Below, one piece after another: positions 9,830 through 58,018 of a stretch of 64,000 bases of DNA. The DNA lies in contig NZ_BDEL01000001.1 in NCBI RefSeq assembly GCF_001685485.1, positions 744,001 through 808,000 of the forward strand, in the 5' to 3' direction. Origin of the DNA: Formosa haliotis (GTDB lineage: Bacteria > Bacteroidota > Bacteroidia > Flavobacteriales > Flavobacteriaceae). A model generated the notes under the pieces. It was not told where the DNA came from. It saw only the letters and a program-made list of their open reading frames with translations, and did no database searches. The translations under genes and the position numbers were made by a program. Position 1 is the first letter of the stretch; each line of letters begins with the position of its first letter.

Positions 9830-11824
9830 TTACCACACCACTGGCATAAACACCGTCATTTCTGCTTGACCTCTATTGCTCCAAGCAAAATAAGGCACAA
9901 ACTGCGTATTAAACGCTTTAAACGAAGGTTTCTTTACTGCTTGGTACATGGTTTCGGTATTATTATCTAAACGCAATAAAATCTCGCCACTAATGGTAGT
10001 AATACCACCTAAAAAGTCTGGCTGATGCTTTGCTTCTAAGGCAGCATTTCCATTTAAATACACGTCTAGAATACTCGTGTCATTTGGTAAATCTGGTGTT
10101 TCAATACAGTACACCATTGGCCCTCTTTTTATAGCCACTTGGTTACGCACTTCTTCTATTCTAGCATGCCCTTCGATTAAAGTAATTTCCATAAGCATAT
10201 CTAAAGTTATGGTATCGCCAACGCTCCATGTTCTATTTATGGTAGCAAATGTTCCAGGGGTAACCGCAACATCTACAGCTTCACCATTTACTTTTAAAGT
10301 GCTCCCTGTTGCCCATTTTGGTATTCTAATTTGAATATCGAAAGCGGTACTTTTACAAGTATCAACAGTAATTTTCACTAAACCTTTCCATGGGTACTCT
10401 GTATCTTGAGATAATTTTAATGGCGAACCATCTAGCATGGTGGTATCTAAATTATTAGCACCGAATAAAACCACAGCTACACCGTTTTCAGATAAGTTAT
10501 AAGCCCATCCTGAACTTTTACAAATGGTTCTTACTAAGTTTGGCGGACAACAAAAACACTCTAAATACGGTTGTCTTACAGGACTTTCTGTAACATCGGC
10601 GTGCGCATCGTAATTCCTTGAATTGTTTACCATACGCAACGGATTAGAGTAGAAATAATCTTTTCCTTCAATACCAATTCCAGACAAACCACTGTTGTAT
10701 AATACAAGTTCTATAATATCGGCGTATCGTGATTGCGCATGAATTCCCATCATTCTGTGGCTAAACATGGCATTACAAAGGTTGGCACAGGTTTCGTTAT
10801 AGGCCGTCATGTTTGGCATCATATAAGCATCAATGAAGCCTTCTTCAATCATATCTAAATTTGTTGAAGCTCCGTAATGTGCTTGCCCCACAGCACCTGT
10901 AGCGTACATTTTCTTATCGGTAACATTCTCCCAAAGTTTATCTAAAGCTTCAATTAAAGCTTTCTCGCCGGTTTCGGCATACACATCGGCTGCCCCTGCA
11001 TAATAATACAAGGCCAAAACGGCATGACCAACAGCTTCTTCAGATTCTCGTAAAGGGGTTCTTTCTTGAACCATATCGCCAATAGGATAGCCTTCTGTAG
11101 TGGAATCGTGCTTAATTTCGAATGTACCACGACGGTTAATAAATTTCTCGGCTAAATTTAAATAACGCTTATCGCCTACCGTTCTATACAATTCTACCAA
11201 GCCCATAATTTGTGTTTGGTTGAAGCCGAAACGCTGATAATGTTTCGTGTCTGGCATAAAGTAAGTGTATAATAAATCGGCCATTTTTACAGCGATATCT
11301 AAAAAGTTAGACTGCCCTGTAATGCGATAATGCACAGATCCTGCAATAAAAAGGTGTCCGAAATTGTACATTTCGTGGTACTTTCGGTTTTCAAAACGAT
11401 CGACACCTTCGGTTATTTGCACATGGGTATGAATGTAACCATCTGGTTCTTGCGCTCTTCCAATAAGTGCGATGTATTCGTCTAATTCTTTTAAAATAGC
11501 TTCGTCTTTGGTTAAACCATAAACATAGGTTTTGGCTTCCATAAACTTAAAGAAATCGCCATCATGCCAATAAAACCCCTTATGTTCGCCTTCCTTTTCT
11601 CCGGCAGCAATTTTAAAATTATTTAAACCATGACCAATATCGCCACATAATAAATCGCCCATATAAGGCAGCATTTTATCTCCTGCATTTTTAACCTTAT
11701 CGGCCCAAAAGCCAGACGTCCATTTACAATCTCCAAAATTGATGCTCTTTAATTTTACAAAAGGACTGTTGGAAGTATTTGTAATTGCTGTGGTATGTTT
11801 TTTTGTTGTACTCATCGTATTCAA
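9830..11824 (-). CDS. GH127 (DUF1680) family glycosidase
   Basis: A 664-residue protein with no signal peptide. It has the all-alpha toroid of DUF1680 followed by beta-sandwich domains. The GH127 zinc/catalytic set is visible: E344 and C346 in YNETCANL, and C425-C426 in ECFCCPPN, matching the Glu-Cys-Cys-Cys site of characterised GH127 enzymes. In carrageenan loci such as that of Zobellia galactanivorans, GH127 enzymes act as exo-alpha-1,3-(3,6-anhydro)-D-galactosidases that free the anhydrosugar; elsewhere they are beta-L-arabinofuranosidases. With GH16 enzymes and an anhydrosugar pathway around it, the first role is favoured. It is last in a five-gene run: sulfatase, MFS porter, two GH16, GH127. 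Lack of a signal suggests action in the cytoplasm, after the porter. Confidence 0.85.
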   Translation of the reverse strand: MNTMSTTKKHTTAITNTSNSPFVKLKSINFGDCKWTSGFWADKVKNAGDKMLPYMGDLLCGDIGHGLNNFKIAAGEKEGEHKGFYWHDGDFFKFMEAKTYVYGLTKDEAILKELDEYIALIGRAQEPDGYIHTHVQITEGVDRFENRKYHEMYNFGHLFIAGSVHYRITGQSNFLDIAVKMADLLYTYFMPDTKHYQRFGFNQTQIMGLVELYRTVGDKRYLNLAEKFINRRGTFEIKHDSTTEGYPIGDMVQERTPLRESEEAVGHAVLALYYYAGAADVYAETGEKALIEALDKLWENVTDKKMYATGAVGQAHYGASTNLDMIEEGFIDAYMMPNMTAYNETCANLCNAMFSHRMMGIHAQSRYADIIELVLYNSGLSGIGIEGKDYFYSNPLRMVNNSRNYDAHADVTESPVRQPYLECFCCPPNLVRTICKSSGWAYNLSENGVAVVLFGANNLDTTMLDGSPLKLSQDTEYPWKGLVKITVDTCKSTAFDIQIRIPKWATGSTLKVNGEAVDVAVTPGTFATINRTWSVGDTITLDMLMEITLIEGHARIEEVRNQVAIKRGPMVYCIETPDLPNDTSILDVYLNGNAALEAKHQPDFLGGITTISGEILLRLDNNTETMYQAVKKPSFKAFNTQFVPYFAWSNRGQAEMTVFMPVVW

Positions 11825-14897: not shown

Positions 14898-16469
14898 TTA
14901 TTTTTTATCTGAAGTCAATGCGGATTGTATCTCCTCAATAGTCATGTTTTTAGTTTCAACCAAATAGCGGTATAAAATAACCAGACCAATAAATACGATG
15001 ATGGCATAGAATAACAAGGTATTACTTATGCCCATTGTTGCCATTTGCCATGGGAAAAATTTCTGAACCAAATAACTCACAATACTGGTTACTAATGTAA
15101 AGAACGGAATGGCAATACCCCGTAGACCAATAGGGAATATTTCTGAAAACAACACCCACATTACAGGACCTACAGAAAAGTGAAAGGCCGCAATAAAACT
15201 AAGAATACCTATTAAGATTAACACCGCATTTATATCTGCCGATTTCTCGATTAACACACTAGAAAACGTACGGGCATCCTCTTCACCTAAAGTATCATGA
15301 ATGGCTTGTTTAAATTCAATATCGCTGCCGTATTCAACATCTACTATAGTATTTAGACGCTCTTTTTTTTCAAGTTCGGTTAATTCAACAACATCCTGAT
15401 TAGTGATGGTATAACTTGCTGTTTTAAATCCGTAATAACACAAACCAAGACTAAAAATAATCCACACCATACCCCAAATAATTAGTGGTCTACGTCCCAA
15501 CTTATCCACTAACAATAAGCCTAGAATTGTAAATATAACACTGGTTAAACCAATCCAAATGGCCTGCATAAAAGCCGCATCTGTTCCCACACCTAATTGT
15601 TCAAACACCGTTGGTGCATAAAATAGTATGGCATTAATACCTGTTGCTTGTTGGGCTATCGCGATGGTCATAGCGATAATCATGGTAAGTCGCATAGGTT
15701 TTGCAAAAATGGCTTTGAGTTGCGCCATGATAGAGTGATCTTGAGTATTTTTACTTAAACTCTCTTTCATTTCTTCCAATTGTACCTCGACCTCACTAAC
15801 TGGTAAAATTTTACTTAAGGTACCCTTCGCTTCCTGTTCCTTATTATTATAGATTAACCAAGCTGGGCTACGCGGAATAAAGAATAATAAAACAAACCAT
15901 AAAAAAGCTGGCAAAATTTCTGATCCCAACATCCAACGCCAGGTATGAGTTCGCAAACCAAAATCGACTACCCATTGGGCATCGGAATTAGTCCACTGCA
16001 GTATTAAATAATTAATAAAATAAGCTGCAGAAAGTCCAAGTACAATGTTAATCTGAGTCATAGACACTAATTTACCTCTCCATTTTGGAGGCGCTATTTC
16101 TCCAATATACATGGATGCTAATGAAATGGAACTAAAAGCTAATCCGCCTAAAAAACGAGCACAAACTAATGACCAATAACTTGGCGCTAAAGTAGAAGCT
16201 ATAGCTGAAATCAAATAAAGCAACGCGATAATTTGTAGGGTACGTTTTCTACCAAAACGATTTGAAGCATACCCGGCCAAAGGCAATGCTAAAAGCACTC
16301 CTAAACCAGGTGCACTAACAACCGTTCCCAATTGTAAATCTGTTAATCCAAACTCCTGAACTATAAAATTAATTGTACCTGAAATTAAAGCGGCATCTAA
16401 TCCGAAAATAAAACCTCCCATCGCTACGATAGTGGCATATGTAAATGCATTTGATTTATATGACCCCAT
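14898..16469 (-). CDS. MFS sugar porter family transporter
   Basis: A 523-residue inner-membrane protein with about 12 hydrophobic segments. Sugar-porter signatures are present: FGRKRT after TM2, PRSPAWL after TM6 (normally PESPRWL), QQATGINAILFYAPT in TM7 and DKLGRRPLI. It resembles XylE/GLUT-type symporters. A charged insert of about 55 residues between TM9 and TM10 (rich in Glu, Lys and Asp) is longer than usual for the family. It lies between the sulfatase and the two GH16 genes, so it probably brings the final mono- or disaccharide, possibly galactose or 3,6-anhydrogalactose, into the cytoplasm. Substrate is inferred from context. Confidence 0.88.
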   Translation of the reverse strand: MGSYKSNAFTYATIVAMGGFIFGLDAALISGTINFIVQEFGLTDLQLGTVVSAPGLGVLLALPLAGYASNRFGRKRTLQIIALLYLISAIASTLAPSYWSLVCARFLGGLAFSSISLASMYIGEIAPPKWRGKLVSMTQINIVLGLSAAYFINYLILQWTNSDAQWVVDFGLRTHTWRWMLGSEILPAFLWFVLLFFIPRSPAWLIYNNKEQEAKGTLSKILPVSEVEVQLEEMKESLSKNTQDHSIMAQLKAIFAKPMRLTMIIAMTIAIAQQATGINAILFYAPTVFEQLGVGTDAAFMQAIWIGLTSVIFTILGLLLVDKLGRRPLIIWGMVWIIFSLGLCYYGFKTASYTITNQDVVELTELEKKERLNTIVDVEYGSDIEFKQAIHDTLGEEDARTFSSVLIEKSADINAVLILIGILSFIAAFHFSVGPVMWVLFSEIFPIGLRGIAIPFFTLVTSIVSYLVQKFFPWQMATMGISNTLLFYAIIVFIGLVILYRYLVETKNMTIEEIQSALTSDKK

Positions 16470-23705: not shown

Positions 23706-24356
23706 TTAAGGTAAAAATTCGAAAATCTCTTCTTTAATACTAATAAAATAGTTTTTTAAACCTTCGTAGTCTTTATTATTTACCAAAGTTTTATTTAACA
23801 GAGAGCTCCCCATACCAACACCAATAGCCCCTGCTTCAAAAAAGGATCTTATATTTTCTTTAGAGACACCACCAGTTGGCAATAATTTAATTTGGTTTAA
23901 AGGTGCTAGAACATCTTTAATATATTGCACGCCCAATTGTGTTGCAGGAAACACTTTTACTGCCGAAGCGCCTAAAGACCAGGCTTTATATATTTCTGTT
24001 GGTGTATAGCAACCTGGAAAAATAGGTATATGTTGTGTCACCGCAATTTTTACAACCTCTTCGTTTAAAATTGGTGTTACAATAAATTGAGCACCTGCTT
24101 GTATCGCTACTTCTAAATCGGATAGCGTGCACACGGTTCCTGCTCCTACATTTAATTCAGGAAATCTGCTTCTTAATTTTTTTATAATATCTGCAGCCCC
24201 TTCAGTATTCATCGTGATTTCAATGGTTGTTAAACCAGCATCTCGATAGGCCGCAACAATATCAAAAATTATGTCTTGAGGTAGGGATCTCACTATACCT
24301 ACAATAGGAGCTCTATAGTATTGTTCCCAAGAAAATCCCAATTTGTTTGTTAACAT
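23706..24356 (-). CDS. KDPG/KDPGal aldolase family protein (Eda-like)
   Basis: A 216-residue class I aldolase of the KDPG/KHG family. The Schiff-base lysine is K134 in SAVKVFPATQ, and the catalytic Glu is E46 in TIEITMN. GAGTV, TPILNEEV and LLPTGGVSKENI are family landmarks. It cleaves 2-keto-3-deoxy-6-phospho-sugar acids to pyruvate and glyceraldehyde-3-phosphate. In the carrageenan anhydrosugar route the equivalent enzyme is the KDPGal aldolase, DauD in my recollection. No KDG/KDGal kinase gene is in this window, so the phosphorylated substrate would depend on a kinase encoded elsewhere. It lies 130 bases downstream of the AraC gene on the same strand. KDPG from the Entner-Doudoroff route is the alternative substrate. 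Confidence 0.88.
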   Translation of the reverse strand: MLTNKLGFSWEQYYRAPIVGIVRSLPQDIIFDIVAAYRDAGLTTIEITMNTEGAADIIKKLRSRFPELNVGAGTVCTLSDLEVAIQAGAQFIVTPILNEEVVKIAVTQHIPIFPGCYTPTEIYKAWSLGASAVKVFPATQLGVQYIKDVLAPLNQIKLLPTGGVSKENIRSFFEAGAIGVGMGSSLLNKTLVNNKDYEGLKNYFISIKEEIFEFLP

Positions 24357-32347: not shown

Positions 32348-33922
32348 ATGTTAAACTCATTTTTAAAATATAGCATTCTCATTATAACACTTAACATCGG
32401 TTTAAGTAGTGGTTTACATGCTCAGCAATTTAAAGCATTTAGAAATGCTACTATAACGAACAAAACACCACTCGACTCTCTTGTTAAAATTTATAAAAAT
32501 GCGCTTCAAAAACAGGATACCTTAGAAATAATATCGAGTTTAATTGATTTAAGCACTATTAACAGAATACATCTTGAATTTAGCGAAGCTTTTAAATATG
32601 CGGGCAATGCTTTATTTCTTGCTGAAGAATTTAAAGACACACTATCAATAGCTCGAGCACATGAAGAATATGGTGTTTTAAATTATTTATTTAAACAAGA
32701 TGAATCTGCTGGAGAGAATTTCAAAAAAGCAAACACCTATTTCCAAATAGCCTATCAAAACAAGCAAATTCCACAATCCCATTTGTTTAGTTCTAGCTAT
32801 AATTTAGCACTGTATTATCAACGCACGGCTCAAGATGATTTGTTATTAAAAAGCATTTCAAAGTGTGAGCAAATCGCAAAAAAATCGATTCAAGACTCTG
32901 TTTGTTATGATTTTTTAAATGAAAAACGCGCCTCAATATTCGAACGAAAAAAAGAATACAGCAAAGCTATTGCACTACTAAAGAAGAGCATAAACAACCT
33001 GAAGCATGCTAAATCGTTTAATGAAAATAAAAGTTTTTTAATCATTCTTAATGCCAGACTTGGCGATCTTTACAGGAGTTTACAGGATTATAAATTGGCT
33101 GGAAATTATTACAAAACAGCCTTAAATATTGAAGATTCTAAAAATGAAAACATATTCTACAAAGCCTACATTTACAGCAGATATGCAGAAACATTAACTG
33201 AATTAGAAGCGTATAAAGACGCCTATAAGAACGAATTTGAGTCTAAAAAAATCTATCAAAGATATTTAAACCCTAGAAATGATGACAATCTTGGTTTTTT
33301 AACCATTAAAAACAACTATAACGAGCAAATAAACAGCAAAAACAAACAACTTATTGCTCAGAAACTAGAGTTAGCCCAGCAAAACCAAAAACTTTTACGT
33401 TTACGTGTTTTATGCTTCGTTTTACTATTTACAGCTATCCTTGCAGCCTTAATAATCCGGTCTCACATTAAAAATATTAAACATCAAAAAAAGGAAGCAG
33501 ATTCAAAATTAGTTATCGACTCCAAAAACAAAGAATTAACAGTAAACACCTTGCAACTTATAGAACGTGAAAAGGTGATTGAATTGTTAAGTGATCACAT
33601 AAAAAAATCGGATTTAGATTCTACAACTCGAACTTTATTAAAAACAATCGACAAACGGTCTATAAATTTATGGGATAGCTTTAACAATCGATTTATAACA
33701 CAAAACGAAGGTTTTTATGAGCGTTTAAAAGCCAAAGCACCCGACTTAAGTGCTGCCGATTTAAAAATATGTGCCCTTATTAAACTAAATTTTACAGGTA
33801 AGGAAATGGCCTATTTACTTGGTATTTCCTTAGGAAGCGTTCATGTTGCACGACATCGATTAAGAAAAAAAATGAATTTAGACCGTGATGTTAACCTCTC
33901 AAACTACATTAATGCCATTTAA
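32348..33922 (+). CDS. TPR-containing membrane regulator with LuxR-type HTH
   Basis: A 524-residue protein. The signal peptide ends near GLHAQQF (residue 26). TPR-like helical repeats fill about 40-320, then a single transmembrane segment at about 350-372 (LRVLCFVLLFTAILAALII), a coiled coil (HQKKEADSKLVIDSKNKEL), and a cytoplasmic LuxR-like HTH in the last 70 residues (LSAADLKICALIKLNFTGKEMAYLLGISLGSVHVARHRLRKKM). The layout suggests periplasmic sensing coupled directly to DNA binding, a class common in Flavobacteriia. It is transcribed divergently from the sulfatase/FAD operon and lies 159 bases before the molybdoenzyme genes on the same strand, so it may control either or both. Ligand unknown. 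Confidence 0.85.
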   Translation: MLNSFLKYSILIITLNIGLSSGLHAQQFKAFRNATITNKTPLDSLVKIYKNALQKQDTLEIISSLIDLSTINRIHLEFSEAFKYAGNALFLAEEFKDTLSIARAHEEYGVLNYLFKQDESAGENFKKANTYFQIAYQNKQIPQSHLFSSSYNLALYYQRTAQDDLLLKSISKCEQIAKKSIQDSVCYDFLNEKRASIFERKKEYSKAIALLKKSINNLKHAKSFNENKSFLIILNARLGDLYRSLQDYKLAGNYYKTALNIEDSKNENIFYKAYIYSRYAETLTELEAYKDAYKNEFESKKIYQRYLNPRNDDNLGFLTIKNNYNEQINSKNKQLIAQKLELAQQNQKLLRLRVLCFVLLFTAILAALIIRSHIKNIKHQKKEADSKLVIDSKNKELTVNTLQLIEREKVIELLSDHIKKSDLDSTTRTLLKTIDKRSINLWDSFNNRFITQNEGFYERLKAKAPDLSAADLKICALIKLNFTGKEMAYLLGISLGSVHVARHRLRKKMNLDRDVNLSNYINAI

Positions 33923-34081: not shown

Positions 34082-34540
34082 ATGATAACGCTACATATAA
34101 ACGGCACCACTCACAAAATAGATGCAGAACCCGATATGCCCTTACTTTGGGCCTTACGAGACCTTCTAGGTTTTACAGGAACAAAATACGGATGTGGGAA
34201 AGGCCTTTGTGGCGCCTGTATGGTTTTAATGGATGGACAAGCCGTAAATTCGTGTTTAATGCCCGTTTCAGCAGTACAGGGTAAAACTTTAATGACCATT
34301 GAAGGAGAATCTGAAAATCTTCAATTATTACAAAAATCATGGGCCGACCTAAATGTTCCGCAATGCGGATTTTGTCAACCAGGTCAACTTATTACAGCCA
34401 CGGCACTTTTAAATAATAATCCATCACCAACTGATGACGATATAAATTCTGCCATGTCTAGAAATTTATGTCGTTGTGGTACGTACCAACGTATTAAAAA
34501 AGCAATTCATCAAACTGTAGATCAAAAAACAAAACCTTAA
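34082..34540 (+). CDS. [2Fe-2S] small subunit of molybdenum hydroxylase (IorA-like)
   Basis: A 152-residue iron-sulfur subunit of the xanthine oxidase family. The first cluster ligands are C38, C43, C46 and C58 (YGCGKGLCGACMVL and NSCL). The second cluster ligands are C95, C98, C130 and C132 (QCGFCQPGQ and LCRCGTYQ). All eight cysteines are present. There is no signal peptide; such subunits are carried out by the Tat signal of the large subunit. The next gene begins 2 bases after the stop. The closest known arrangements are isoquinoline 1-oxidoreductase (IorAB) and cytochrome-linked periplasmic aldehyde dehydrogenases of the AldFGH type. The aldehyde reading suits this locus better than isoquinoline. 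Confidence 0.93.
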   Translation: MITLHINGTTHKIDAEPDMPLLWALRDLLGFTGTKYGCGKGLCGACMVLMDGQAVNSCLMPVSAVQGKTLMTIEGESENLQLLQKSWADLNVPQCGFCQPGQLITATALLNNNPSPTDDDINSAMSRNLCRCGTYQRIKKAIHQTVDQKTKP

Positions 34541-34542
34541 TT

Positions 34543-36729
34543 ATGGCAGGAATAAAAAATATAAGCAGACGAGGTTTTATAAAAAATATAGGCTTAGCTT
34601 CTGGCGGATTCATATTAGCAACATCGCTTTCGTCTTTCACCAAATTTGCAGAGGTGGTTACAGAAGTCAAGTCTTTTAATCCTAATTTATTTATTCAATT
34701 AAATCCAGATGGCAGCTTAATATTGGTAGCCTCTCGATCGGAAATGGGACAAGGAATTAGAACAGCCTTAACCTCGGTAATTGCAGATGAAATGGAAGCC
34801 GATTGGAATCGTGTTTCAGTAAAACAAGCCACTGGAAACGCCATATATGGTAACCAGAACACCGATGGATCTAGAAGTGTTAGAACTCTTTACCAAACCA
34901 TGCGAGTAATGGGGGCTACAGCAAAAGCGATGCTAATTACTGCTGCAGCAAAAACATGGCAAGTTCCAGAATCTGAATGTGTCGCCGAAAACCATTTTAT
35001 TACACATACTTCGGGTAAAAAATTAGGCTATGGCGAATTAGCTCCTTTAGCAAGCACTATAGATACTCCTGAACATGTAACACTTAAATCACCTAAAGAT
35101 TTCAAGTTTATTGGAAAGCAATTACCTAGTATAGACGTTCATGATTTTGTTAATGGAAGTGCGATTTACGGATTGGATAAACGCTTGCCTAATTTAAAAT
35201 TTGCTGCGGTAAAACGTTGTCCTGTTACTTTTGGAACAGTAAAAACTTTCGACAAAACAGAAGCATTAAAAATAAAAGGTGTGCTCGAGGTTGTTGAAAT
35301 TCCTTGGGTAAAACGCGCCTATGGTGCTCTGGGAGGTGTTGCTGTAATCGCTACAAATACATGGGCCGCTTTTAAAGGGCGAGATGCGTTAAAAGTAACT
35401 TGGGATTATGGCGAAAATAAAGATTATAACACTGAATTATTTATAAACCAACTAGAAGAAACCGTACATAAAAAAGGTCGGGTTGACAAATCTATAGGGA
35501 ATACAGAAACCGCTTTTAGTACAGCAAGCAATATAGTTGAACACACTTATAAATTACCACATTTGGCGCACACTCCTATGGAAGTTCCAAATGCGATCGC
35601 GTGGGTTCAAGGTGATACTTGCGAAGTTTGGGCTCCTGTACAAGCTCCTCAATCGGCAAGAAAAGAAGTTGCTAATTTTTTAAATATAGATGAAGAAAAA
35701 GTCACTATAAACGTACAATTGTTAGGTGGTGGTTTTGGAAGAAAGGCTAAACCCGATTATGTTGTTGAAGCCACTGCTTTATCTAAAGCCATTAATGCTC
35801 CTGTTCAGGTAGTTTGGTCTCGTGAAGACGATATTAAAAACGCCTATTATCATACCATTTCGTCGCAATATTTAAAAGCTAGTTTAGACAAAAACGGACA
35901 AGTCACGGGTTGGTTACACCGTTTGGCACTACCTACAATAAAATCTACTTTTCAGCATGGTGCCAATACGCCACAAGCGGGCGAACTGGATAGCGCTGTA
36001 AATGTACCTTATAATATTCCTAATATTCAAATTGAAAGCGGAACCTCTAATGCACACCTTAGAATTGGTTGGTTACGTTCGGTAATAAATATTCCAAATG
36101 CATTTTGTATAAATGTTTTCGCCGATGAATTAGCTGCCGAAACAGGAAAAGACCCTTTAGAATTCAGATTAAATCTTATTGGTCCCGACAGACTTGAAGA
36201 CACTAAAAACGAATATAAATACGATACTGCAAAACTGAAACATGTACTTAAAACAGCTGCAAAAAACATTGGTTATGGCAAACCATTACCTAAAGGACAT
36301 GGCATAGGATTGGCAGTACATTATAGTTTCTTTTCGCATGTTGCCACAGCCATAGAAGTTTCGGTTATTGATAACAAGCTAAAAGTACACAACGTGAGTA
36401 TTGTAATTGACTGCGGGACTGCTATTAATAAAAATTCGGTTGTAGCGCAGATGGAAGGGGCTACTGTTTTCGGTTTGTCTTTAGCCATGTATGGCAAAAT
36501 ATCGACTAAAAATGGTGTTGTTGAACAAAGTAATTTTAATGACTATCAAATTTTAAGAATGGTTGATACTCCTAAAACACAGGTTGAAATTATTGAAAAT
36601 AATGCCAAACCTACCGGGGTTGGCGAACCAGGAGTTCCTGTTATTGCTCCTGCACTTGTAAATGCCATATTTAATGCTACTGGAAAACGGTACAGAAGTT
36701 TGCCTTTATCTGAACATGGTTTGGTATAA
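34543..36729 (+). CDS. Molybdopterin large subunit of exported aldehyde oxidoreductase (IorB-like)
   Basis: A 728-residue catalytic subunit. SRRGFIKN (residues 8-15) followed by GLASGGFILATSLSSF is a Tat signal. The molybdopterin-binding segments include GQGIRTALTSVIADEMEADW, LLGGGFGRKAKPDYVVEA and GVGEPGVPVIAPAL, in which E695 corresponds to the catalytic glutamate of the xanthine oxidase family. There is no FAD subunit and no fused cytochrome domain, so electrons must leave by another carrier; a monohaem cytochrome c gene converges on it with 73 bases between. XdhC and a MocA-like gene 20 kb away would supply finished cofactor. I propose a sugar aldehyde as substrate, with free 3,6-anhydrogalactose the most attractive candidate. 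Subunit type is firm; substrate is a guess. Confidence 0.9.
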   Translation: MAGIKNISRRGFIKNIGLASGGFILATSLSSFTKFAEVVTEVKSFNPNLFIQLNPDGSLILVASRSEMGQGIRTALTSVIADEMEADWNRVSVKQATGNAIYGNQNTDGSRSVRTLYQTMRVMGATAKAMLITAAAKTWQVPESECVAENHFITHTSGKKLGYGELAPLASTIDTPEHVTLKSPKDFKFIGKQLPSIDVHDFVNGSAIYGLDKRLPNLKFAAVKRCPVTFGTVKTFDKTEALKIKGVLEVVEIPWVKRAYGALGGVAVIATNTWAAFKGRDALKVTWDYGENKDYNTELFINQLEETVHKKGRVDKSIGNTETAFSTASNIVEHTYKLPHLAHTPMEVPNAIAWVQGDTCEVWAPVQAPQSARKEVANFLNIDEEKVTINVQLLGGGFGRKAKPDYVVEATALSKAINAPVQVVWSREDDIKNAYYHTISSQYLKASLDKNGQVTGWLHRLALPTIKSTFQHGANTPQAGELDSAVNVPYNIPNIQIESGTSNAHLRIGWLRSVINIPNAFCINVFADELAAETGKDPLEFRLNLIGPDRLEDTKNEYKYDTAKLKHVLKTAAKNIGYGKPLPKGHGIGLAVHYSFFSHVATAIEVSVIDNKLKVHNVSIVIDCGTAINKNSVVAQMEGATVFGLSLAMYGKISTKNGVVEQSNFNDYQILRMVDTPKTQVEIIENNAKPTGVGEPGVPVIAPALVNAIFNATGKRYRSLPLSEHGLV

Positions 36730-36748
36730 TCACTACAGTTTAATTACT

Positions 36749-36783
36749 AAAAACGCAGATAACGTATTGTGATCTGCGTTTTT
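36749..36783. terminator. Bidirectional terminator between molybdoenzyme and cytochrome genes
   Basis: A perfect 12-bp stem, AAAAACGCAGAT / ATCTGCGTTTTT, with an 11-base loop and A/T runs on both sides. It sits between convergent genes and probably serves both. Confidence 0.9.
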
Positions 36784-36802
36784 ATTTTCATAGTACACCT
36801 AT

Positions 36803-37207
36803 TTATTTTATAGCCGTTGCTATTGTTTCTTCTTCTATTAACCCAAATTCATTCCCCCAACTGTTGGAGATATAATTTACAACATCTGTTAATTCCTTTG
36901 TACTTAAATTATGACTTGGCATACTGCCGTAATACGACACACCGTTTACTTTAATTTCACCACTTAGGCCTTTTAAAATATTTTGGGCCGCTCTAGGAAT
37001 ATCCGACAGCAAATAATCCGACTTGGCTAAAGGCGGAAATGCTCCTGTTAAACCTTCCCCATTTTCCATATGGCAAGCAATACATTGTACATTATAAATC
37101 TGTTTACCCCTATTTATACGCTCTTGTAATTCATTCTGACCGAAAACAAAACCCGTATACAACATTACAGTAAGGCTTATTATACTTTTAATAAAATTCA
37201 TAGTCAA
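36803..37207 (-). CDS. Periplasmic monohaem cytochrome c
   Basis: A 134-residue protein with a signal peptide ending at VFGQN (residue 24). The haem site is C42-I-A-C45-H46. M96 in YYGSMPSHN is the likely axial ligand, as in small class I cytochromes, and the helix LSTKELTDVVNYISNSWG closes the fold. It begins 2 bases after the GH-A hydrolase stop, so it shares that transcript, yet it converges on the IorAB-like molybdoenzyme. Cytochrome c subunits are the electron acceptors of IorAB-type aldehyde dehydrogenases in proteobacteria, so it plausibly takes electrons from that enzyme toward a terminal oxidase. The partnership is inferred from position. Confidence 0.9.
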   Translation of the reverse strand: MTMNFIKSIISLTVMLYTGFVFGQNELQERINRGKQIYNVQCIACHMENGEGLTGAFPPLAKSDYLLSDIPRAAQNILKGLSGEIKVNGVSYYGSMPSHNLSTKELTDVVNYISNSWGNEFGLIEEETIATAIK

Positions 37208-37209: not shown

Positions 37210-39498
37210 TTATTTTTTTTCTGATAATTCAACAAAATACACCTCGTAAGGTTTTAACACAGGCTGCAAGGACACTTCTATACCATTTAACAGGTCCTTA
37301 CAGTAGACCTCATGTTCTGCCCCTTTAAGCTTTATCGCTATATTGGTGTCTGTTTTACCCAAGTTAATTATAGACAGAACATAATTTCCTGCATCGTTTG
37401 TTGTGTAACGCCACATACATCCTTTATAACCGTTCGCGTTTGTTTCTGTTACCGAAATTTCGGGCAGACCACTTTTGTTTTTTACTTGCGCTAAAACCGA
37501 CGCTTTTGTTCGATCTAAAGTAGAAACAATTAATAAGGTTCCTTTACTCTGCTTTAATCGTTCTAAAGGCAATCCGTATTCATTCCTTTTTAAACTGATC
37601 GCATCTGTAATAATTGTACCTCCTTCATCTAAATACTGCTGTAAGGCATTTAATTCTTCTTGAGTAACATGTTCTGTATTATACACCAAAACCACATCCC
37701 ACAAGTTAGAATTCTGCTCTAAAAGTATATTCTTGGTGGCAAATCCCAAAGGAATCCCTTCAAAATTTAAAGCTTCATACGCTTCAAAAATACCATCCAT
37801 ATAGCTGGCTTTATTTGCTGCAGACGTTTTAGAATAAAATAAGCGAATAGGTTTTCTCGCATTTTGCATCTTAACAATCTCTTCACTATAGGAGTTTAAA
37901 TCCATAATAGTTGAAAACAATTCATTGGTAACCTGTGGTTGCTGATTGTTAGATCCTGCATAACCTTTAGTTACTTTTTTTCTTAAGGAGCCATCTATAT
38001 CTCTTGGCCAATACCACGTTTGCGATGCATTTAAACCTAAAATATGAGCCGCCCAATGTACAGCTCGCACATAGGCAGGATCCATATATAAATCGCGTGA
38101 ATGATTGGTACTTAACAAATGACTTTCGGAATTAAAATTAAGTTGATTAGGACGTACAGATTTCAAAAAATCATAGCCCATAAAGAGCTCTCTCCAGCCA
38201 AAAGCATATTTTTGGTCTAATACAATTTCTCCCGATCGGGTATAATTATAATTTGCTGCAACATCGTTACCGTTAATCTCACTCAATTCTGTTAAAGCTT
38301 CCAAATCAATACCTGTACAAGGATCGTTATTGGTAAAAAATGAAGGCATAATTTTTAATTGCGCCTTTGCACTGGGATCGTATTTTCTTATTTCAGATTT
38401 CATCCAAGTAAACCATTGGGTTACTCTATAGTCATTAAAGGTATTCCAATCGTACCATTTTGGAGTGCCCAGAAGTGAAATATCCATAGGGATTTCTACA
38501 GTAATGGCATCAAAATTTTTAAAATTCGTGTGCCACAATGCATTTAATTGCGCTATAGATTGATGCTTTGTTTGTAACCATTTTTTAAACTTTTCAATGG
38601 TAAATGCGCTTACACTTTGACTGCTCCACACTTTTTTAGAACCATTTTTATAAGTAATCCATCGTGGCTCGTTACATAACATATAACCTAAATTGGTATA
38701 CTGTTTACCTGCCATTTTAGGAACAGTTCCTTTGATAAGATTCCCCATTAATTCCTTTGCTCCCGGGTTATCGATATCATACTCTAAAAACGGAGCACCT
38801 TGCATACGATTAAATGTAGCACCGTATTTTTTGTTTGTCCATTCTGGCACATTTTTATTATTTATAAACACAAAACCAGGTGTATTACTTGATTCGGCAT
38901 ATAATTTTTGAAGAAAATTTTCATCCACATTTCCAGAAGCATCTACAAACGAGGGTGAGATAAACGCCACATCTAAATCCCCATAAAACTCTTGTAACTG
39001 TTTAGAATCTGGTTTCCATGTAAAATCGGCCAAAAAAACAGGCCGGTTATTACATGTAATTTGATTAGACTCTACCTTAACTTTAGTCCAATCTATATTA
39101 GGAATTGGTTGTCTTATTACTTTACCATCCCGCAACTTTTCAGCATATAGTATGGCATTATCAAGCATCTTAATAATGTCGTTTCTTTCAAAATCTGGTA
39201 GAGCCTCGGCCATAGATTTCGCATTGTTTTTATAAATTGAAAATTGCTTGAAATAGGATTCGTTTTCAGCCTTATGGCTTTCATCCCATTGGGCATATTT
39301 CAAAAACTCTTCGGCCGTTCTCACTGTCATGCGCTCTTTTAAAGCATCTTTTCCTTGAGCTTCAATGGTGTAAATTAATTGATCTAGTTGTGAAATTTTA
39401 TTATTAGCAGTCTTTTCTAAGGATTGTGAAAAAGACAAATTAACCATTAATACGAAGAGATAAACAAATCCTTTATATTTTATTTTTGAAACCATCAT
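37210..39498 (-). CDS. Clan GH-A glycoside hydrolase, GH42/GH167-like, second copy
   Basis: A 762-residue protein with a type I signal peptide ending near LSFSQS (residue 25), where its paralogue at 7004-9397 is a lipoprotein. The candidate acid/base is E277 in GYMLCNEPRW, and the nucleophile E458 in NFNSESHLLS. Order and spacing match the paralogue throughout, including LPDFER, EYDIDNPGAKEL, TPKWYDWN and TNANGYKGCMWRYT near the C-terminus. Probably another exo-acting enzyme on desulfated oligogalactans. Different export routes suggest one works at the surface or membrane and the other in the periplasm. It starts an operon with cytochrome c; an imperfect hairpin separates it from the aldolase operon upstream. 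Confidence 0.7.
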   Translation of the reverse strand: MMVSKIKYKGFVYLFVLMVNLSFSQSLEKTANNKISQLDQLIYTIEAQGKDALKERMTVRTAEEFLKYAQWDESHKAENESYFKQFSIYKNNAKSMAEALPDFERNDIIKMLDNAILYAEKLRDGKVIRQPIPNIDWTKVKVESNQITCNNRPVFLADFTWKPDSKQLQEFYGDLDVAFISPSFVDASGNVDENFLQKLYAESSNTPGFVFINNKNVPEWTNKKYGATFNRMQGAPFLEYDIDNPGAKELMGNLIKGTVPKMAGKQYTNLGYMLCNEPRWITYKNGSKKVWSSQSVSAFTIEKFKKWLQTKHQSIAQLNALWHTNFKNFDAITVEIPMDISLLGTPKWYDWNTFNDYRVTQWFTWMKSEIRKYDPSAKAQLKIMPSFFTNNDPCTGIDLEALTELSEINGNDVAANYNYTRSGEIVLDQKYAFGWRELFMGYDFLKSVRPNQLNFNSESHLLSTNHSRDLYMDPAYVRAVHWAAHILGLNASQTWYWPRDIDGSLRKKVTKGYAGSNNQQPQVTNELFSTIMDLNSYSEEIVKMQNARKPIRLFYSKTSAANKASYMDGIFEAYEALNFEGIPLGFATKNILLEQNSNLWDVVLVYNTEHVTQEELNALQQYLDEGGTIITDAISLKRNEYGLPLERLKQSKGTLLIVSTLDRTKASVLAQVKNKSGLPEISVTETNANGYKGCMWRYTTNDAGNYVLSIINLGKTDTNIAIKLKGAEHEVYCKDLLNGIEVSLQPVLKPYEVYFVELSEKK

Positions 39499-39631: not shown

Positions 39632-40414
39632 TTATAAAAACACATCGTTTTTACAGTGTAATTCTTTTGTAATGCCCTTAAAGGTATTCATGACTAAGCC
39701 AACATCTACGGAATACGAGATATATTGCACGCCAATATCTTTCCACATTTTAGCTTTTTCAGGCGATTCTGTAAACGTACCTACAGCTTTACCATATTTT
39801 TTAGCTGTTTTTACAGCATCTTTCATAGCATTCACAACTTTCGGGTCGTTAACTTGACCTGGAACTCCACAAGATTGCGATAAGTCGTAAGGCCCTAAGA
39901 AAATGACATCAATACCATCAACTTGAACAATCTCCTCTAAATTATTAATGCCTTCCATTCCTTCAATATGAATAATGGTTGTTACTTGATCATTAGCATT
40001 ACCAAAATGATCGGCACCATTAATATTGGTATATTCTGCAGCACGCACATAACGGCACATACCGCGTTCTCCTTTAGGATAAAACTTAGTGGCTTTTACA
40101 ACTTTATCGGCATCTGCTTTGGTACAGATTTGAGGTATTTGAATACATTTAATTCCAATATCTAAGGCTCTTAAAATTAAAGTTTCCGAATTTTCGGTTA
40201 CCCTAACTACTGGTGTTATACCTTTAGCTTCTGCCGCACGAACCATATTTTGAGTAGATTCTATGCTAAATGGACCATGCTCCATATCTATAATTACAAA
40301 ATCGAAACCGCTAAAAGCAGCAATTTCTACGATAGCTGGATCTTGCATTTTACAAAACGGGCCAAACACTGTATTTCCCGCTTTAAGACTGTCTTTTAAT
40401 AGATTTCTAATCAT
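39632..40414 (-). CDS. HpcH/HpaI-family 2-keto-3-deoxy sugar acid aldolase
   Basis: A 260-residue class II, metal-dependent aldolase. H46 in IIDMEHGPFS is the catalytic histidine and R71 in VVRVTEN contacts the pyruvyl group. The metal site is formed by the Glu in HIEGMEG and the Asp in FLGPYDLSQS. Family members (GarL, RhmA, HpaI) split 2-keto-3-deoxy acids without phosphorylation. It lies 3 bases after the aldehyde dehydrogenase and follows the cycloisomerase, so its likely substrate is the 2-keto-3-deoxygalactonate made by that pathway, giving pyruvate and glyceraldehyde. This would be a non-phosphorylative branch beside the KDPG-type aldolase at 23706. The exact substrate is inferred. Confidence 0.88.
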   Translation of the reverse strand: MIRNLLKDSLKAGNTVFGPFCKMQDPAIVEIAAFSGFDFVIIDMEHGPFSIESTQNMVRAAEAKGITPVVRVTENSETLILRALDIGIKCIQIPQICTKADADKVVKATKFYPKGERGMCRYVRAAEYTNINGADHFGNANDQVTTIIHIEGMEGINNLEEIVQVDGIDVIFLGPYDLSQSCGVPGQVNDPKVVNAMKDAVKTAKKYGKAVGTFTESPEKAKMWKDIGVQYISYSVDVGLVMNTFKGITKELHCKNDVFL

Positions 40415-40417: not shown

Positions 40418-41872
40418 TTATAATGCTGTTGAAACACGTTTTTTAACTAAATAATCCTCTAATGCTAAATGCGAACAATCGTGACCTATACCACTATTTT
40501 TAAAACCTCCATGCGGCAAATAAATCGCGTATTTTACACCATTAATTTGGATTTCTCCAAACTCAAGATCTTCTGTAAAACGCTCAATGCGTTTATGATT
40601 GTTTGTGAATATATAGGACGCTAAACCAAATTCTGTATCGTTAGCCAATTCTAAAACTTCATCATCTGTATCGAAAGGCATTACCCCTGCCACAGGACCA
40701 AAAGTCTCTTCTCTAAACAATTTCATATCTGTTGTAATGCCAGACAGGATTGTAGGTTGAAACCAGTTTCCGCCTTCTGGTAAATCTGCAGGAATTTCTC
40801 CTCCATATTCTAATTTCGCTCCTTTGCCAACGGCATCTTCTATTAACTCCAACATTCTATCCCTAGCACTTCTAGAAGCTAACGGCCCCATAAATACATC
40901 TTCGTTTTCTTTAATCCCGAAACCAATTTTTATTTCTGAAGCACGTTTCACATAAGCCTTCAAGAATTTATCATAAATGTTTTTATGAACAAAAATCCTG
41001 TTTGCAGCTACACAAATCTGACCCGTATTGCCGAATTTTAAACCTATTGCAAGATCTAAAGCCGTATCAAAATCGGCATCTTCAAAAACAATAAATGGTG
41101 CGTTACCTCCCAATTCCATTCCTAATTTTTTGATAGAAGTTGTACTATCGGCAATAACTTTCTGACCCGTTTGTGTAGACCCTATCATTGTTAATACCGC
41201 TGGGATTTTACTTGTTGTCATTGGTGTTGCCACATCACGACTAGATCCGGCCAAAATATTTACAACACCTTTAGGGAAGTTTATGCTATGTAAAATTTCG
41301 CCAACCATATAAGTTGATAATGGAGAAAGTGCAGAAGGTTTAATAATTAAAGAACATCCTGCAGCTAGTGCTGGTCCAATTTTATAACCTACATTTAAAA
41401 GCGGGAAATTCCATGCTAAATACGCAACGACTACCCCTGCAGGCTTCGCAATCATTTTATGGGTATGCGTATTATCGTAATCTGGAATTTGCTCTTCTCT
41501 TAAATTCTTCATGGCATTTGGATACCACTCTAAAGCCTCTGTAAGTCTTTCAATATCCTCTAATGACCCAGCATAAGTTTTTCCCATTTCATGAACCATT
41601 GCAGTTCTTAGTTCGTGAGATTTTTCTAATATGGCATCGCGTAGTTTAAGCATCCATGTTGTACGTTCATCTAACGAAAGGTTTTTCCAATAATTAAATC
41701 CTTTTTGAGACGATTCTAAAGCCCTTAAAGCATCTTCTTTTCCTGCTTTTGCCACCTGAGCAATAACTTCGCCCGTGGCAGGACAAATAACATCCTCGCG
41801 CTCTCCACTTGCCGAATCAACTAATTGTCCGTCGATGTATAATTTTTTATATCCGAAATTCTCTGTTTTCAT
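40418..41872 (-). CDS. NAD(P)-dependent aldehyde dehydrogenase, likely for 3,6-anhydrogalactose
   Basis: A 484-residue cytoplasmic ALDH. N155 (AYLAWNFPLL), E253 (GMELGGNAPF) and the nucleophile C287 (GNTGQICVAANR) are all present. GSTQTGQKV is the cofactor-loop segment. It sits between the cycloisomerase gene (21 bases) and the aldolase gene (3 bases). In both the agar and carrageenan anhydrosugar pathways the first step is ALDH oxidation of 3,6-anhydrogalactose to 3,6-anhydrogalactonate (DauA for the D-form), followed by cycloisomerisation. The gene order here fits that exactly. Whether it acts on the D- or L-form cannot be read from sequence. Confidence 0.9.
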   Translation of the reverse strand: MKTENFGYKKLYIDGQLVDSASGEREDVICPATGEVIAQVAKAGKEDALRALESSQKGFNYWKNLSLDERTTWMLKLRDAILEKSHELRTAMVHEMGKTYAGSLEDIERLTEALEWYPNAMKNLREEQIPDYDNTHTHKMIAKPAGVVVAYLAWNFPLLNVGYKIGPALAAGCSLIIKPSALSPLSTYMVGEILHSINFPKGVVNILAGSSRDVATPMTTSKIPAVLTMIGSTQTGQKVIADSTTSIKKLGMELGGNAPFIVFEDADFDTALDLAIGLKFGNTGQICVAANRIFVHKNIYDKFLKAYVKRASEIKIGFGIKENEDVFMGPLASRSARDRMLELIEDAVGKGAKLEYGGEIPADLPEGGNWFQPTILSGITTDMKLFREETFGPVAGVMPFDTDDEVLELANDTEFGLASYIFTNNHKRIERFTEDLEFGEIQINGVKYAIYLPHGGFKNSGIGHDCSHLALEDYLVKKRVSTAL

Positions 41873-41893: not shown

Positions 41894-43045
41894 TTATTTT
41901 AATACGGTCTCGCTTTTATGAATGCTATACTTTTGTAATACATCCTCATCGATATCGATACCTAATCCAGGTCTGTTTGGAACCTCGAGATATCCGTCTT
42001 TCATGACTATAGACGGATAAGTCAGTTTTTCTCTTAACCCATTTTCTGTCTGATCGTATTCTATTAAAAACTCTGGTTGATACATTCGTCCTGGAATGGA
42101 TTCTAAATTTGAAATAAAATGTAAGGCGACATGAATACCTATAGATGTTCCCCATGTATGCGGAATAAGATCTACGCCATTTGCACTCGCAAGTGCCGAA
42201 ATACGCTTAGCCTCTGTTAATCCCCCACTGGCACAAATATCGGGTTGAATTATATCTACCGATTTATTTTGAATGAGTTGTTGAAACCCAAATCTTAAAT
42301 ATTCACATTCACCACCAGAAATTGGAATGGTTGTTTTTTGTCTTAATTCGTTATACTGACCGTAAAACTCTGGCGAAATAGGCTCTTCGAACCAACCAAT
42401 ATCGTATTTTTCAATTTTTCTTGCTAATTCTGTAGCTTCTCTTAAAGTATATGCATGATTAGAATCGACCATTAACTTAATGTCTGGCCCAATATACTCA
42501 CGCATTTTTTTAACATTTTCAACATCTGCCTTTATACCTAAGCCCACTTTCATTTTCATGGCTTTGAAACCTTGAGCAATATAAGATTTAGCTTCCTTTT
42601 CAAAATCTCTAGCAGGATTTTCAAAATCTGTAAAATACATACCTGTTGCATAAGGCATGATTTTAGTACGATGTGCCCCACCTAACAGAGTTGAAATTGG
42701 TAAACCCAAAACCTTTCCTTTTAAATCCCAAATGGCAATATCTATGGCACTCATAGAAGCTACCAAAACGCCACGTCTTGCAAAATCGAGAGATTTTCGA
42801 TACATTTTATTCCAGATAACTTCGTTTAATAAAGGATTTTCTCCTACAACTGTTGCTTCTAACATTTTTATACCGGCTTCTAATACAGTTGCTGGACCGT
42901 AGCCTTCACCCCAACCATATTGTCCGTTTGATGCCGTGATTTTCACAACACAAATACAACGTTCAGAATATTCCCATTGCGAAAAGAAAAAGCTTTTAGA
43001 AAGTTTATCTTTTAATATAAAGGTTTCTATTTTTTCAATTATCAT
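41894..43045 (-). CDS. Enolase-superfamily cycloisomerase (mandelate racemase subgroup)
   Basis: A 383-residue protein. The KxK motif is K164 and K166 (KAMKMKVG); metal ligands are D194 (MVDSNH), E220 (WFEEP) and E246 (GGECEYL); the opposite base is H296 (PHTWG). It therefore has the complete mandelate racemase-type active site. Proposed reaction: 3,6-anhydrogalactonate to 2-keto-3-deoxygalactonate, the ring-opening step of the red-algal anhydrosugar pathway (DauB-like for D, the ACI enzyme for L). First gene of the operon with the dehydrogenase and HpcH/HpaI aldolase. A general sugar-acid dehydratase is the alternative, but the neighbours favour the cycloisomerase. Confidence 0.88.
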   Translation of the reverse strand: MIIEKIETFILKDKLSKSFFFSQWEYSERCICVVKITASNGQYGWGEGYGPATVLEAGIKMLEATVVGENPLLNEVIWNKMYRKSLDFARRGVLVASMSAIDIAIWDLKGKVLGLPISTLLGGAHRTKIMPYATGMYFTDFENPARDFEKEAKSYIAQGFKAMKMKVGLGIKADVENVKKMREYIGPDIKLMVDSNHAYTLREATELARKIEKYDIGWFEEPISPEFYGQYNELRQKTTIPISGGECEYLRFGFQQLIQNKSVDIIQPDICASGGLTEAKRISALASANGVDLIPHTWGTSIGIHVALHFISNLESIPGRMYQPEFLIEYDQTENGLREKLTYPSIVMKDGYLEVPNRPGLGIDIDEDVLQKYSIHKSETVLK

Positions 43046-56383: not shown

Positions 56384-57006
56384 CTAGATATCGAATGTTT
56401 TACTATACAATTCATCATAATCCGATTTTGTATCCAAATCAAAATTTTCCATATCGGGCTTACACCTAATAACGTGAGATGAAAATGATTTTAAAACAGA
56501 TTGTGCGCCAATATCTTCTCCTAGTTTTCTTAATTCTGAAAAATAAAAAGCATCAAAAATAACAGGAACTCCTAATTTTGAATTGAAATATTCAGATGCC
56601 AAAATCTGTTTTTTATTTTTTGAAATGATGCCATCATATCCTTTAGGTAGGAAGGACGTATAAAAGGTTGATCTGCTAATACAATAAGTACAGCATCCAC
56701 TTTTTCTGAAGACTTACAAATATAATTAACTGCAAACGCAATAGAATTCCCCAACCCTTCTTGCCACGTTTTATTATCTAAGATGGTTACTGGGTAATTA
56801 ATAATATGTTCTTTTATTAGATTAAAATTAGCACCTAAAACGACTAAAGTCTCCAATGATTCTAGTTCTAAAACAGTGTGCAAACTATGCTCTAAAAGTG
56901 TTGTATTTCCCCATGGTAATAATTGTTTAGGACGTCCCATTCTGGAAGACGACCCCGCAGCAAGAATAATAACTTTTAAATTTAGAGATGCATCAACTTT
57001 AGGCAT
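56384..57006 (-). pseudogene. MobA/MocA-like molybdenum cofactor nucleotidyltransferase, split by frameshift
   Basis: Two overlapping frames together make one NTP-transferase of about 207 residues. The first has the nucleotide loop VIILAAGSSSRMGRPKQLLPW and the metal-site LADQPF; the second continues ASEYFNSKLGVPVIFD to DLDTKSDYDELY, as in MocA proteins that make molybdopterin cytosine dinucleotide. The break is at an A6 run (minus strand, 56614-56609). One extra A, or a -1 ribosomal shift on the heptamer A_AAA_AAC (56614-56608), joins them exactly. It overlaps xdhC by 8 bases. The likely client is the IorB-like enzyme. Options are sequencing error, recent inactivation, or programmed frameshifting. 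Confidence 0.8.
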
Positions 57007-58018
57007 GAATATGTCCTGTTTTCTCCCTTAAAGATATAGGGTGCTGTTGCCTTACAACCGATAATATTTCAGAAACAATAGACACAGCAATCTCTTGTGG
57101 AGTCTCTGCACCAATATTTAATCCTGCCGGACCATAGATGACGTCTAAAAAAGCTTCATCAAGCATCTCGAATTGAAGTTCTAACACTTCAGAAATTAAT
57201 TTTTCTCGGCGTTTTACAGGTCCAAGAAGACCAATATATATGGGCAAAGTATGTTTTAACGCTAGCAGATTTCTCAAATCTCGAGCGTAGTTATGTGACA
57301 TTAAAACTATAGCTGTTAATTTATCTATACACAAGGCATTAAAATCGATATTTTCAAAATATAACAACTCATTAGCACCTGGAAAATCATTTAAAGATTT
57401 ATGTTCAGATAATCCAGCGACAACCACTGTTTCCCACCCCATGCTATGTGCAAATTTACATAGTTGAACAGTGTCATGCTCGGTTCCAAAAATAATTAGT
57501 CGAAAACGAGCAGGCAGGATATCTTTAAATTCCATAAGCTTATTTTCCTCTTGAGGGCAATTATATTTTGAAAACCAATTTTTTTCATCACGAAATAAAA
57601 AGTACGAACCATAACTTTTATTTGTACTTACCTCTGTTGAAAACAAAGAAGTAATTTGAATAGGTATCCTTTGTTTTAAATATGACCGAAATTTATTTAT
57701 TATACTTAAATCTAATGAAAATGGTTCGATTAAAATATATAATATGCCTTCGCAACCTAATCGGTAACGGCCATCATATGTCATAACTTTAGGAACAGCC
57801 GTTTTAAAAACCGAGTCGCTTTGCCGCTTTACCTCTTGTTCTACACAACCGCCACTTACGGCTCCTACTATTCCACCGTTAGATTTTATTAACATTCGAA
57901 CCCCAGGCTTTCTATATGATGAGCCTTCTAAATGCACAACAGTTGCCAATACACAGTCTAAATGCTTTTGTTTAGCATTTAAGTAGGCATCTATAATGTG
58001 TTTGAATTCGAAAGTCAT
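56999..58018 (-). CDS. xdhC: XdhC/CoxI family molybdoenzyme maturation protein
   Basis: A 339-residue protein. The N-terminal XdhC/CoxI domain shows VATVVHLEGSSYRKPGVRML and IVGAVSGGCVEQEV. The C-terminal Rossmann-type domain starts near LPARFRLIIFGTEHDTVQL and includes VLMSHNYARDL, ALKHTLPIYIGLLGP and DVIYGPAGLNIGAETPQEIAVSI. XdhC proteins bind molybdenum cofactor, protect or sulfurate it, and load it into xanthine-dehydrogenase-type enzymes. The only such enzyme in the window is the IorAB-like pair at 34082-36729. It forms an operon with the MocA-like gene. Located just inside the right end of the island, near the integrase. Confidence 0.92.
   Translation of the reverse strand: MTFEFKHIIDAYLNAKQKHLDCVLATVVHLEGSSYRKPGVRMLIKSNGGIVGAVSGGCVEQEVKRQSDSVFKTAVPKVMTYDGRYRLGCEGILYILIEPFSLDLSIINKFRSYLKQRIPIQITSLFSTEVSTNKSYGSYFLFRDEKNWFSKYNCPQEENKLMEFKDILPARFRLIIFGTEHDTVQLCKFAHSMGWETVVVAGLSEHKSLNDFPGANELLYFENIDFNALCIDKLTAIVLMSHNYARDLRNLLALKHTLPIYIGLLGPVKRREKLISEVLELQFEMLDEAFLDVIYGPAGLNIGAETPQEIAVSIVSEILSVVRQQHPISLREKTGHIHA

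Follow-up and report, generated by a model that had tools for sequence, protein, structure and literature searches.

The closest described relatives of the locus treated here are the carrageenan loci of PMC5698469. The available text of that paper gives a core for the use of 3,6-anhydro-D-galactose (D-AnG) that consists of dagA (GH127), dauA, dauB and an aldolase, reports alpha-1,3-(3,6-anhydro)-D-galactosidase activity for Zobellia GH127 members, predicts that the D-AnG-releasing enzymes of Zobellia are periplasmic and records stress proteins induced by growth on D-AnG. On the enzyme side, the IorA-II/PP_3622/AdhB system of P. putida is among the candidates that the available part of PMC7188995 names for the oxidation of glyceraldehyde, by a route that runs beside the main one. 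Here we describe a 64,000-nucleotide stretch of Formosa haliotis DNA (hereafter the window; contig NZ_BDEL01000001.1, positions 744,001 to 808,000), which sits within a single 4.3 Mb contig and in which an IorAB-type molybdenum hydroxylase gene pair, a small cytochrome c gene and an XdhC maturation gene lie in one carrageenan locus. IorAB genes of this family are linked to dauB in other genomes as well and appear to have been recruited into such loci more than once. Whether the three components together carry out a respiratory oxidation of D-AnG in the periplasm, as an optional branch beside the dehydrogenase DauA, is in our judgement an evenly balanced question.

The IorAB gene pair and its partners

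The IorA and IorB genes (Table 1) form an intact pair at 34082-36729 on the forward strand, with two bases between them. IorA carries two [2Fe-2S] motifs with eight cysteines, at 38, 43, 46, 58, 95, 98, 130 and 132, and IorB has GQG at 69, GGGFG at 395, GVGEPG at 692 and both MoCoBD domains. The glutamate of GVGEPG is the catalytic residue in the xanthine-oxidase family, and this E695 is near-invariant in 82 aligned IorB sequences, as are R9 and R10 of the SRRGF motif that begins at residue 8 and marks IorB, by motif, as a Tat candidate. A complete pair with a Tat signal had been claimed in the initial annotation; the domains and the cysteines bear out the complete pair, and the SRRGF motif is that of a putative Tat signal. 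The strand between 33922 and 37500 carries IorA and IorB only, so that the operon has no FAD subunit gene, and the pair shows the make-up of the IorAB type of the xanthine-oxidase family, that is, a separate small subunit, a MoCoBD large subunit and no FAD subunit gene. Matches of both proteins to solved oxidoreductases are far beyond chance and run near full length on both 8gy3 subunits; since this nearest solved structure is an aldehyde dehydrogenase, the aldehyde-oxidising class proposed earlier is supported. Neither IorA nor IorB scores above the cut-off of any NCBIfam model and the activity is therefore unnamed by any curated model; to judge from these comparisons, "isoquinoline 1-oxidoreductase" is an annotation name only.

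XdhC-type proteins ready the molybdenum cofactor for xanthine-oxidase-family enzymes. At E <= 0.001 the genome has no PF02738 (XDH-family large subunit) match other than IorB, which lies 20 kb from XdhC; since the only client and the only helper found are in one window, the module is self-contained. A MoeA gene was found elsewhere in the genome, outside the window, and MoaA, MoaC-MoCF, MoaE and MobA-like genes are clustered elsewhere in the genome, adjoining a gene with molybdopterin-binding and pyridine-nucleotide domains. A Flavobacterium IR1 moeA mutant forms altered colonies on kappa-carrageenan and other polysaccharides (PMC12758843), which is at most a hint that molybdenum supports carrageenan use; the available text of that paper makes no mention of isoquinoline oxidoreductase.

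The cytochrome c gene converges on IorB across a gap of 73 bases (36730-36802). Its open reading frame (ORF), 36803-37207, begins at TTG, the ATG at 37201 being the likelier start, and by eye the N-terminus is of Sec type. The gap holds a symmetric hairpin whose folding energy (-17 against a shuffled mean of -7.4 kcal/mol, z -3.9) was equalled by 1 of 200 shuffles, although a simple consensus terminator scan did not list it. The monohaem cytochrome at this distance and a bidirectional terminator had both been noted before; these data uphold the first and make the second probable. Among solved sequences the cytochrome comes closest to nitrite reductase 2zoo, in the C-terminal part of that protein, and to c-552. 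It is predicted to be a small carrier of electrons, unlike the multihaem subunit found in enzymes of the AldFGH type.

Linkage of IorB to DauB

In a survey of 397 Flavobacteriaceae genomes (E <= 1e-60), 35 genomes gave DauB relatives and 205 gave IorB relatives. The close IorB clade, with at least 57% identity to the window's protein, occurs in 15 genomes by a hand count among the matches listed. Seven genomes have both DauB and a close-clade IorB. In 6 of the 7 the two share a contig and lie no more than 40 kb apart (start-to-start distances of 7 to 38 kb), where chance would give 0.13; this expectation places the genes at random in 4.2 Mb and treats the genomes as independent, although related ones are not. 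In G238 the two are on separate contigs. Cellulophaga (L035, the same as G400) provides a further linked locus from outside the survey. The smallness of this chance expectation speaks against IorAB as an unrelated passenger, an explanation we consider very improbable even though transcription of the pair is separate from that of the GH and Dau genes next to it and its close clade is missing, among the matches listed, from 28 of the 35 DauB-positive genomes. Together with the lack of any other IorB relative in 30 DauB stretches that have no close-clade IorB, that absence means that the module is optional.

The gammaproteobacterial surveys for IorB were run at E <= 1e-100. Among 48 Microbulbifer genomes, DauB relatives were found in 6 and IorB relatives in 26; IorB lies 13 to 26 kb from DauB in 5 of the 6 DauB-positive genomes, and none was matched in the sixth. 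All five linked loci have XdhC beside IorAB and a GH167 relative 62-63% identical to the window's protein at 7004, and a KDGal kinase was confirmed in one of them (G660), as was a KDPGal aldolase. The family of Gayadomonas is presumably Alteromonadaceae in the GTDB sense. Among its 246 genomes, 142 have IorB relatives and 24 have DauB relatives, all 24 with IorB as well (p 9e-7), a co-occurrence that may reflect a shared life style. In at least 3 of these 24 (G445, G539 and G452), where 0.4 would be expected (p 0.008), IorB lies within 30 kb of DauB. In the G539 stretch no gene was recognised as a glycosidase. The activity of the gammaproteobacterial DauB relatives is less certain, since they are just 39-46% identical. 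Conserved linkage, which the initial annotation had proposed as a check, is thus found in 6 of 7 Flavobacteriaceae and 5 of 6 Microbulbifer genomes, yet it is absent among the matches listed from the 28 Flavobacteriaceae above and from 21 of 24 DauB-positive Alteromonadaceae.

Comparisons of gene content between loci have to be read with care, as unequal stretch length and centring bias all Fisher tests on DauB-locus and CytC gene content. An association of GH127 with IorAB (7 of 7 against 14 of 30 loci) was not used, because the positive stretches are longer and differently centred; within 20 kb of DauB the count is about 5 of 7 by hand. Relatives of the TPR protein upstream of IorA occur in 3 of 7 DauB loci with IorAB and 1 of 30 without. 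Relatives of the cytochrome (47-66% identity) lie near IorB in 4 sister loci, and in G084 an XdhC relative, 58% identical, lies 1.3 kb from IorB and adjoins the cytochrome. CytC is found downstream of IorB, on the opposite strand and no more than 8 kb away, in 5 of the 7 linked flavobacterial loci. The same holds for 3 of the 28 close-clade loci without linkage, in Flavobacterium, where CytC comes after XdhC and MobA, a few of the non-linked close-clade and gammaproteobacterial loci being covered by less than 3 kb of downstream DNA. Three of the 30 DauB loci without IorAB also gave a CytC match, including G002 and G011 with ORFs of about 490 amino acids (aa); we discounted these two as probable nitrite reductase fusions, given the 2zoo match, which leaves G036.

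Phylogeny of IorB

The relationships were assessed on a tree of 71 IorB sequences, 16 of them strictly linked, the label being set by distance and not by the tree. An earlier tree held 82 of 129 IorB sequences, the remaining distant relatives being left out, and was reduced by dropping G416, G399 and nine distant or long-branched rows. As linked sequences, G416 was rejected because its IorB lies beside a 35% enolase and not beside DauB, and G399 because its IorB lies 69 kb from DauB.

A single clade of the 16 linked IorBs is rejected (p-AU 8.9e-5), and the seven linked flavobacterial IorBs are compatible with one clade (p-AU 0.53). The linked label requires five changes on the tree, the simplest reading of which is about four entries, namely Flavobacteriaceae, Microbulbifer, G452 and G539 with G445, and each entry has as its sister group IorBs from the same broad lineage that are not linked. 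Repeated loss of linkage could stand in place of repeated recruitment. That recruitment happened more than once is the strongest evidence for a role of the enzyme in carrageenan use, and the pattern is not described in the main text of PMC5698469 as available. For convergent residues, taken as alignment columns common to the linked IorBs of separate clades but less frequent in their sisters, the best difference was 0.63; the reverse direction gave a larger one (0.72), and therefore no substrate signature is claimed.

Proposed role and substrate

Enzyme, cytochrome and XdhC probably oxidise a released sugar outside the inner membrane. We propose that IorAB, matured by the XdhC of the same locus, would be exported by Tat to the periplasm as a molybdenum hydroxylase and would there oxidise an aldehyde sugar freed from carrageenan to an aldonic acid, while the small cytochrome c would pass the electrons on to the respiratory chain. 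D-AnG would be the likeliest substrate, giving 3,6-anhydro-D-galactonate, the substrate of DauB, once the acid had been imported. Such an optional branch, parallel to cytoplasmic DauA and present in a minority of these loci, would save the cell one step tied to NAD(P) and clear an aldehyde that causes stress. On chemical grounds D-AnG is the best guess. It cannot close its ring, and in Zobellia it is predicted to be released in the periplasm and induces stress proteins, which fits periplasmic aldehyde oxidation.

Sister loci hold lactonase, galactonate and epimerase genes, which suit D-galactose, a ring-forming sugar, no less well than D-AnG and make it a serious rival. IorAB would then oxidise D-galactose to galactonolactone or galactonate in the periplasm, and the imported acid would be dehydrated to 2-keto-3-deoxy-galactonate, as reached from D-AnG. 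In G072, a galactonate dehydratase-like enzyme (NF010624, 268 bits) and a relative of the TIGR00893 D-galactonate transporter (372 bits) are divergent from an IorA-IorB-SGL lactonase run, although both score under their curated cut-offs (311 and 395). A lactonase relative, 52% identical, follows IorB in G334; the G246 and G334 loci have relatives of both galactonate genes 9-15 kb from IorB; a dehydratase-GntP-aldolase operon lies directly upstream in Maribacter (G334) and runs into IorA; and in G445 an aldose epimerase precedes XdhC-IorAB in the same gene run. Over 37 DauB loci (7 with and 30 without IorAB) the lactonase and galactonate genes are associated with IorAB at p 0.04-0.09, but these are leads only, since stretch lengths are unequal and many genes were tried, and the same genes also occur in DauB loci without IorAB (DgoD in 3 of 30, DgoT in 2 of 30, lactonase in 1 of 30). 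The window yielded no lactonase, mutarotase or galactonate gene, and a galactonate dehydratase query met nothing closer in its genome than DauB, at 29%. Molybdenum hydroxylases moreover favour free aldehydes, which galactose scarcely offers. On balance we think D-galactose oxidation unlikely, and as the IorAB substrate D-AnG stays ahead of it about two to one.

Maribacter vaceletii (L002:2548-9533) has a row of genes for two FAA hydrolases, an IlvD/EDD-type dehydratase, a GntP permease, a CHMI isomerase, an acylating aldehyde dehydrogenase and a DmpG-type aldolase that leads into IorAB, and this operon is possibly a non-phosphorylating aldonate route.

The stress response of Zobellia to D-AnG and the frequency of the IorB family outside such loci, evident from the survey counts, would also suit an aldehyde detoxifier of broad range, one that shields the cell during growth on carrageenan but does not feed the pathway. 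Recruitment into D-AnG loci more than once and the acid-handling neighbour genes suggest a metabolic step instead, and we regard detoxification as quite unlikely.

Several observations count against periplasmic D-AnG oxidation by the module. Deletion of dauA abolishes growth of Zobellia on D-AnG, so that no bypass works in this organism; the legend of Fig. 9 does not settle whether OXR belongs to Zobellia, and OXR is missing from Table 1 (PMC5698469, available text). The 35 window ORFs of at least 150 aa include no recognised GntP- or DgoT-type importer of the acid, and the lactonase, mutarotase and galactonate genes of sister loci are not needed for D-AnG. CytC is absent within 8 kb of IorB from all 10 gammaproteobacterial loci, given the downstream coverage stated above, and from G370 and G400, which have IorAB; G036 keeps CytC in a carrageenan locus without close-clade IorAB. 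A wider proposal, that carrageenan degraders of two phyla independently gained, on top of the known cytoplasmic route, a respiratory, periplasmic and molybdenum-dependent oxidation of D-AnG, D-galactose or both that delivers electrons directly to cytochrome c, and import aldonic acids besides sugars, seems to us slightly more doubtful than not.

Zobellia belongs to the same family as the bacteria carrying the module. Direct testing is feasible, since the genes and the substrates to be tried are defined and Zobellia is amenable to gene deletion (PMC5698469, available text). If periplasmic D-AnG oxidation is confirmed, a gene noted in 2017 without a function (PMC5698469) would gain one, a direct-respiration step usual in acetic acid bacteria and pseudomonads would enter algal polysaccharide degradation, and carrageenan use would be partly molybdenum-dependent in some degraders.

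The surrounding locus

The dehydrogenase at 40418, which the initial annotation had taken for a cytoplasmic enzyme, is of DauA type by its match to 6pnu and 6pop, which we take to be DauA of the Pseudoalteromonas carrageenan pathway; 5olc, matched by DauB, is presumably the Zobellia protein. With GH127 (dagA), dauA, dauB and an aldolase, the locus has the whole D-AnG core, and carrageenan-type hydrolases and sulfatases are present by similarity at family level (GH167, GH16 and four sulfatases). From the DauA and DauB matches, two GH167 relatives, GH127, four GH16, four sulfatases and two SusCD pairs, we identify it as a carrageenan utilisation locus of the type in PMC5698469 and PMC6923384. 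The earlier assignment to an algal galactan stands and is narrowed to carrageenan of the kappa family by GH167, DauA, DauB and GH127; sulfatases and glycosidases flank IorAB and the cytochrome on both sides, as had been claimed.

Table 1. Features of the window, with positions, strands and supporting matches
Feature	Position	Strand	Basis
Second GH167 relative, lipoprotein by eye	7004..9397	-	6ptm 538 bits, 9whd 509 bits
GH127, family of alpha-1,3-(3,6-anhydro)-D-galactosidases	9830..11824	-	PF07944
Sugar porter (MFS)	14898..16469	-	PF00083; TIGR00879 above cut-off
KDPG-type aldolase	23706..24356	-	PF01081; TIGR01182 above cut-off
TPR protein, probable regulator, upstream of IorA	32348..33922	+	PF13424, below its cut-off
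IorA-type [2Fe-2S] subunit, 152 aa	34082..34540	+	PF00111 + PF01799; 8gy3_B best solved match, E 3.9e-46
IorB-type molybdopterin subunit, 728 aa, Tat motif	34543..36729	+	PF02738 + PF20256; 8gy3_C best solved match, E 3.8e-95, residues 6-722
Symmetric hairpin with A and T tracts, probable bidirectional terminator	36748..36784	.	13-pair outer stem, -17 kcal/mol
Monohaem cytochrome c, 132 aa, signal-like N-terminus	36803..37201	-	PF00034; one CIACH at residue 40
GH167 glycoside hydrolase	37210..39498	-	9whd_A 1150 bits, 6ptm 674 bits
HpcH/HpaI-type aldolase, perhaps for 2-keto-3-deoxy-galactonate (from context)	39632..40414	-	PF03328
DauA-type D-AnG dehydrogenase	40418..41872	-	6pnu/6pop best solved match, E 8.6e-145
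DauB-type 3,6-anhydro-D-galactonate cycloisomerase, enolase family	41894..43045	-	5olc best solved match, E 8.8e-145
XdhC/CoxI maturation factor	56999..58018	-	sole PF02625 match in genome at E <= 0.001

Some neighbouring genes deserve mention. On the reverse strand, an FAD oxidoreductase (28616-30541, PF12831), with an N-terminus that looks Tat-like and lipoprotein-like by eye, is followed by a protein without Pfam match (27482-28612); the pair, after a relative of the sulfatase at 30573, is met again in G084 and, at 68% and about 30% identity, in two Microbulbifer loci. The first is a putative second exported oxidoreductase, and the two are perhaps, as a guess, the FR/SR and UNK of the PMC5698469 heat map. 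An FG-GAP/UnbV_ASPIC protein (5057-6955, reverse strand) has relatives in many of the compared carrageenan loci. Immediately beyond XdhC lie a tyrosine recombinase (58435-59724), a Schlafen/AlbA protein (60255-61628) and an rve-type integrase (61985-63289), in DNA of lower GC (about 0.31), and this edge of the locus may be mobile. In Microbulbifer G675, two GntR/FCD regulators (L102:5161-6757) stand on the strand opposite the carrageenan-linked IorAB, with like-sized genes at that position in L103, L105 and L106 and one in L108; GntR/FCD regulators often sense sugar acids. Genes for a multihaem cytochrome-like protein, an aldose 1-epimerase and XdhC lie in a row upstream of IorAB in G445 (L110:9301-13792).

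Comparison with known systems

AldFGH- and AdhB-type enzymes have a multihaem cytochrome subunit in the same operon. The aldehyde dehydrogenase 8gy3, whose small [2Fe-2S] and large subunits align nearly full length with IorA and IorB, is, we assume, the membrane-bound enzyme of Gluconobacter, with a larger, multihaem cytochrome subunit. The window differs from both in that its cytochrome is a separate monohaem protein, convergently transcribed. The P. putida IorA-II/PP_3622/AdhB system likewise joins IorAB and a cytochrome c in a parallel oxidation route, but with an AdhB-type cytochrome and no polysaccharide locus (PMC7188995, available part).

Among carrageenan pathways, that of Pseudoalteromonas shares DauA, GH16, sulfatases and GH167 with the window, whereas the word "oxidoreductase" is absent from the main text of PMC6923384 as available. 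The loci of PMC5698469 share DauA, DauB, GH127, sulfatases and SusCD. The initial annotation knew of no described algal polysaccharide locus with such an enzyme, a claim of novelty that is overstated; an isoquinoline oxidoreductase is named in the Fig. 9 legend of PMC5698469. It is mentioned there once, without a function, "cytochrome" and "molybd" being absent from the available main text, and this is the only paper found to join isoquinoline 1-oxidoreductase with carrageenan or polysaccharide utilization. The IorAB module is thus a new branch on a known pathway and not a new kind of system.

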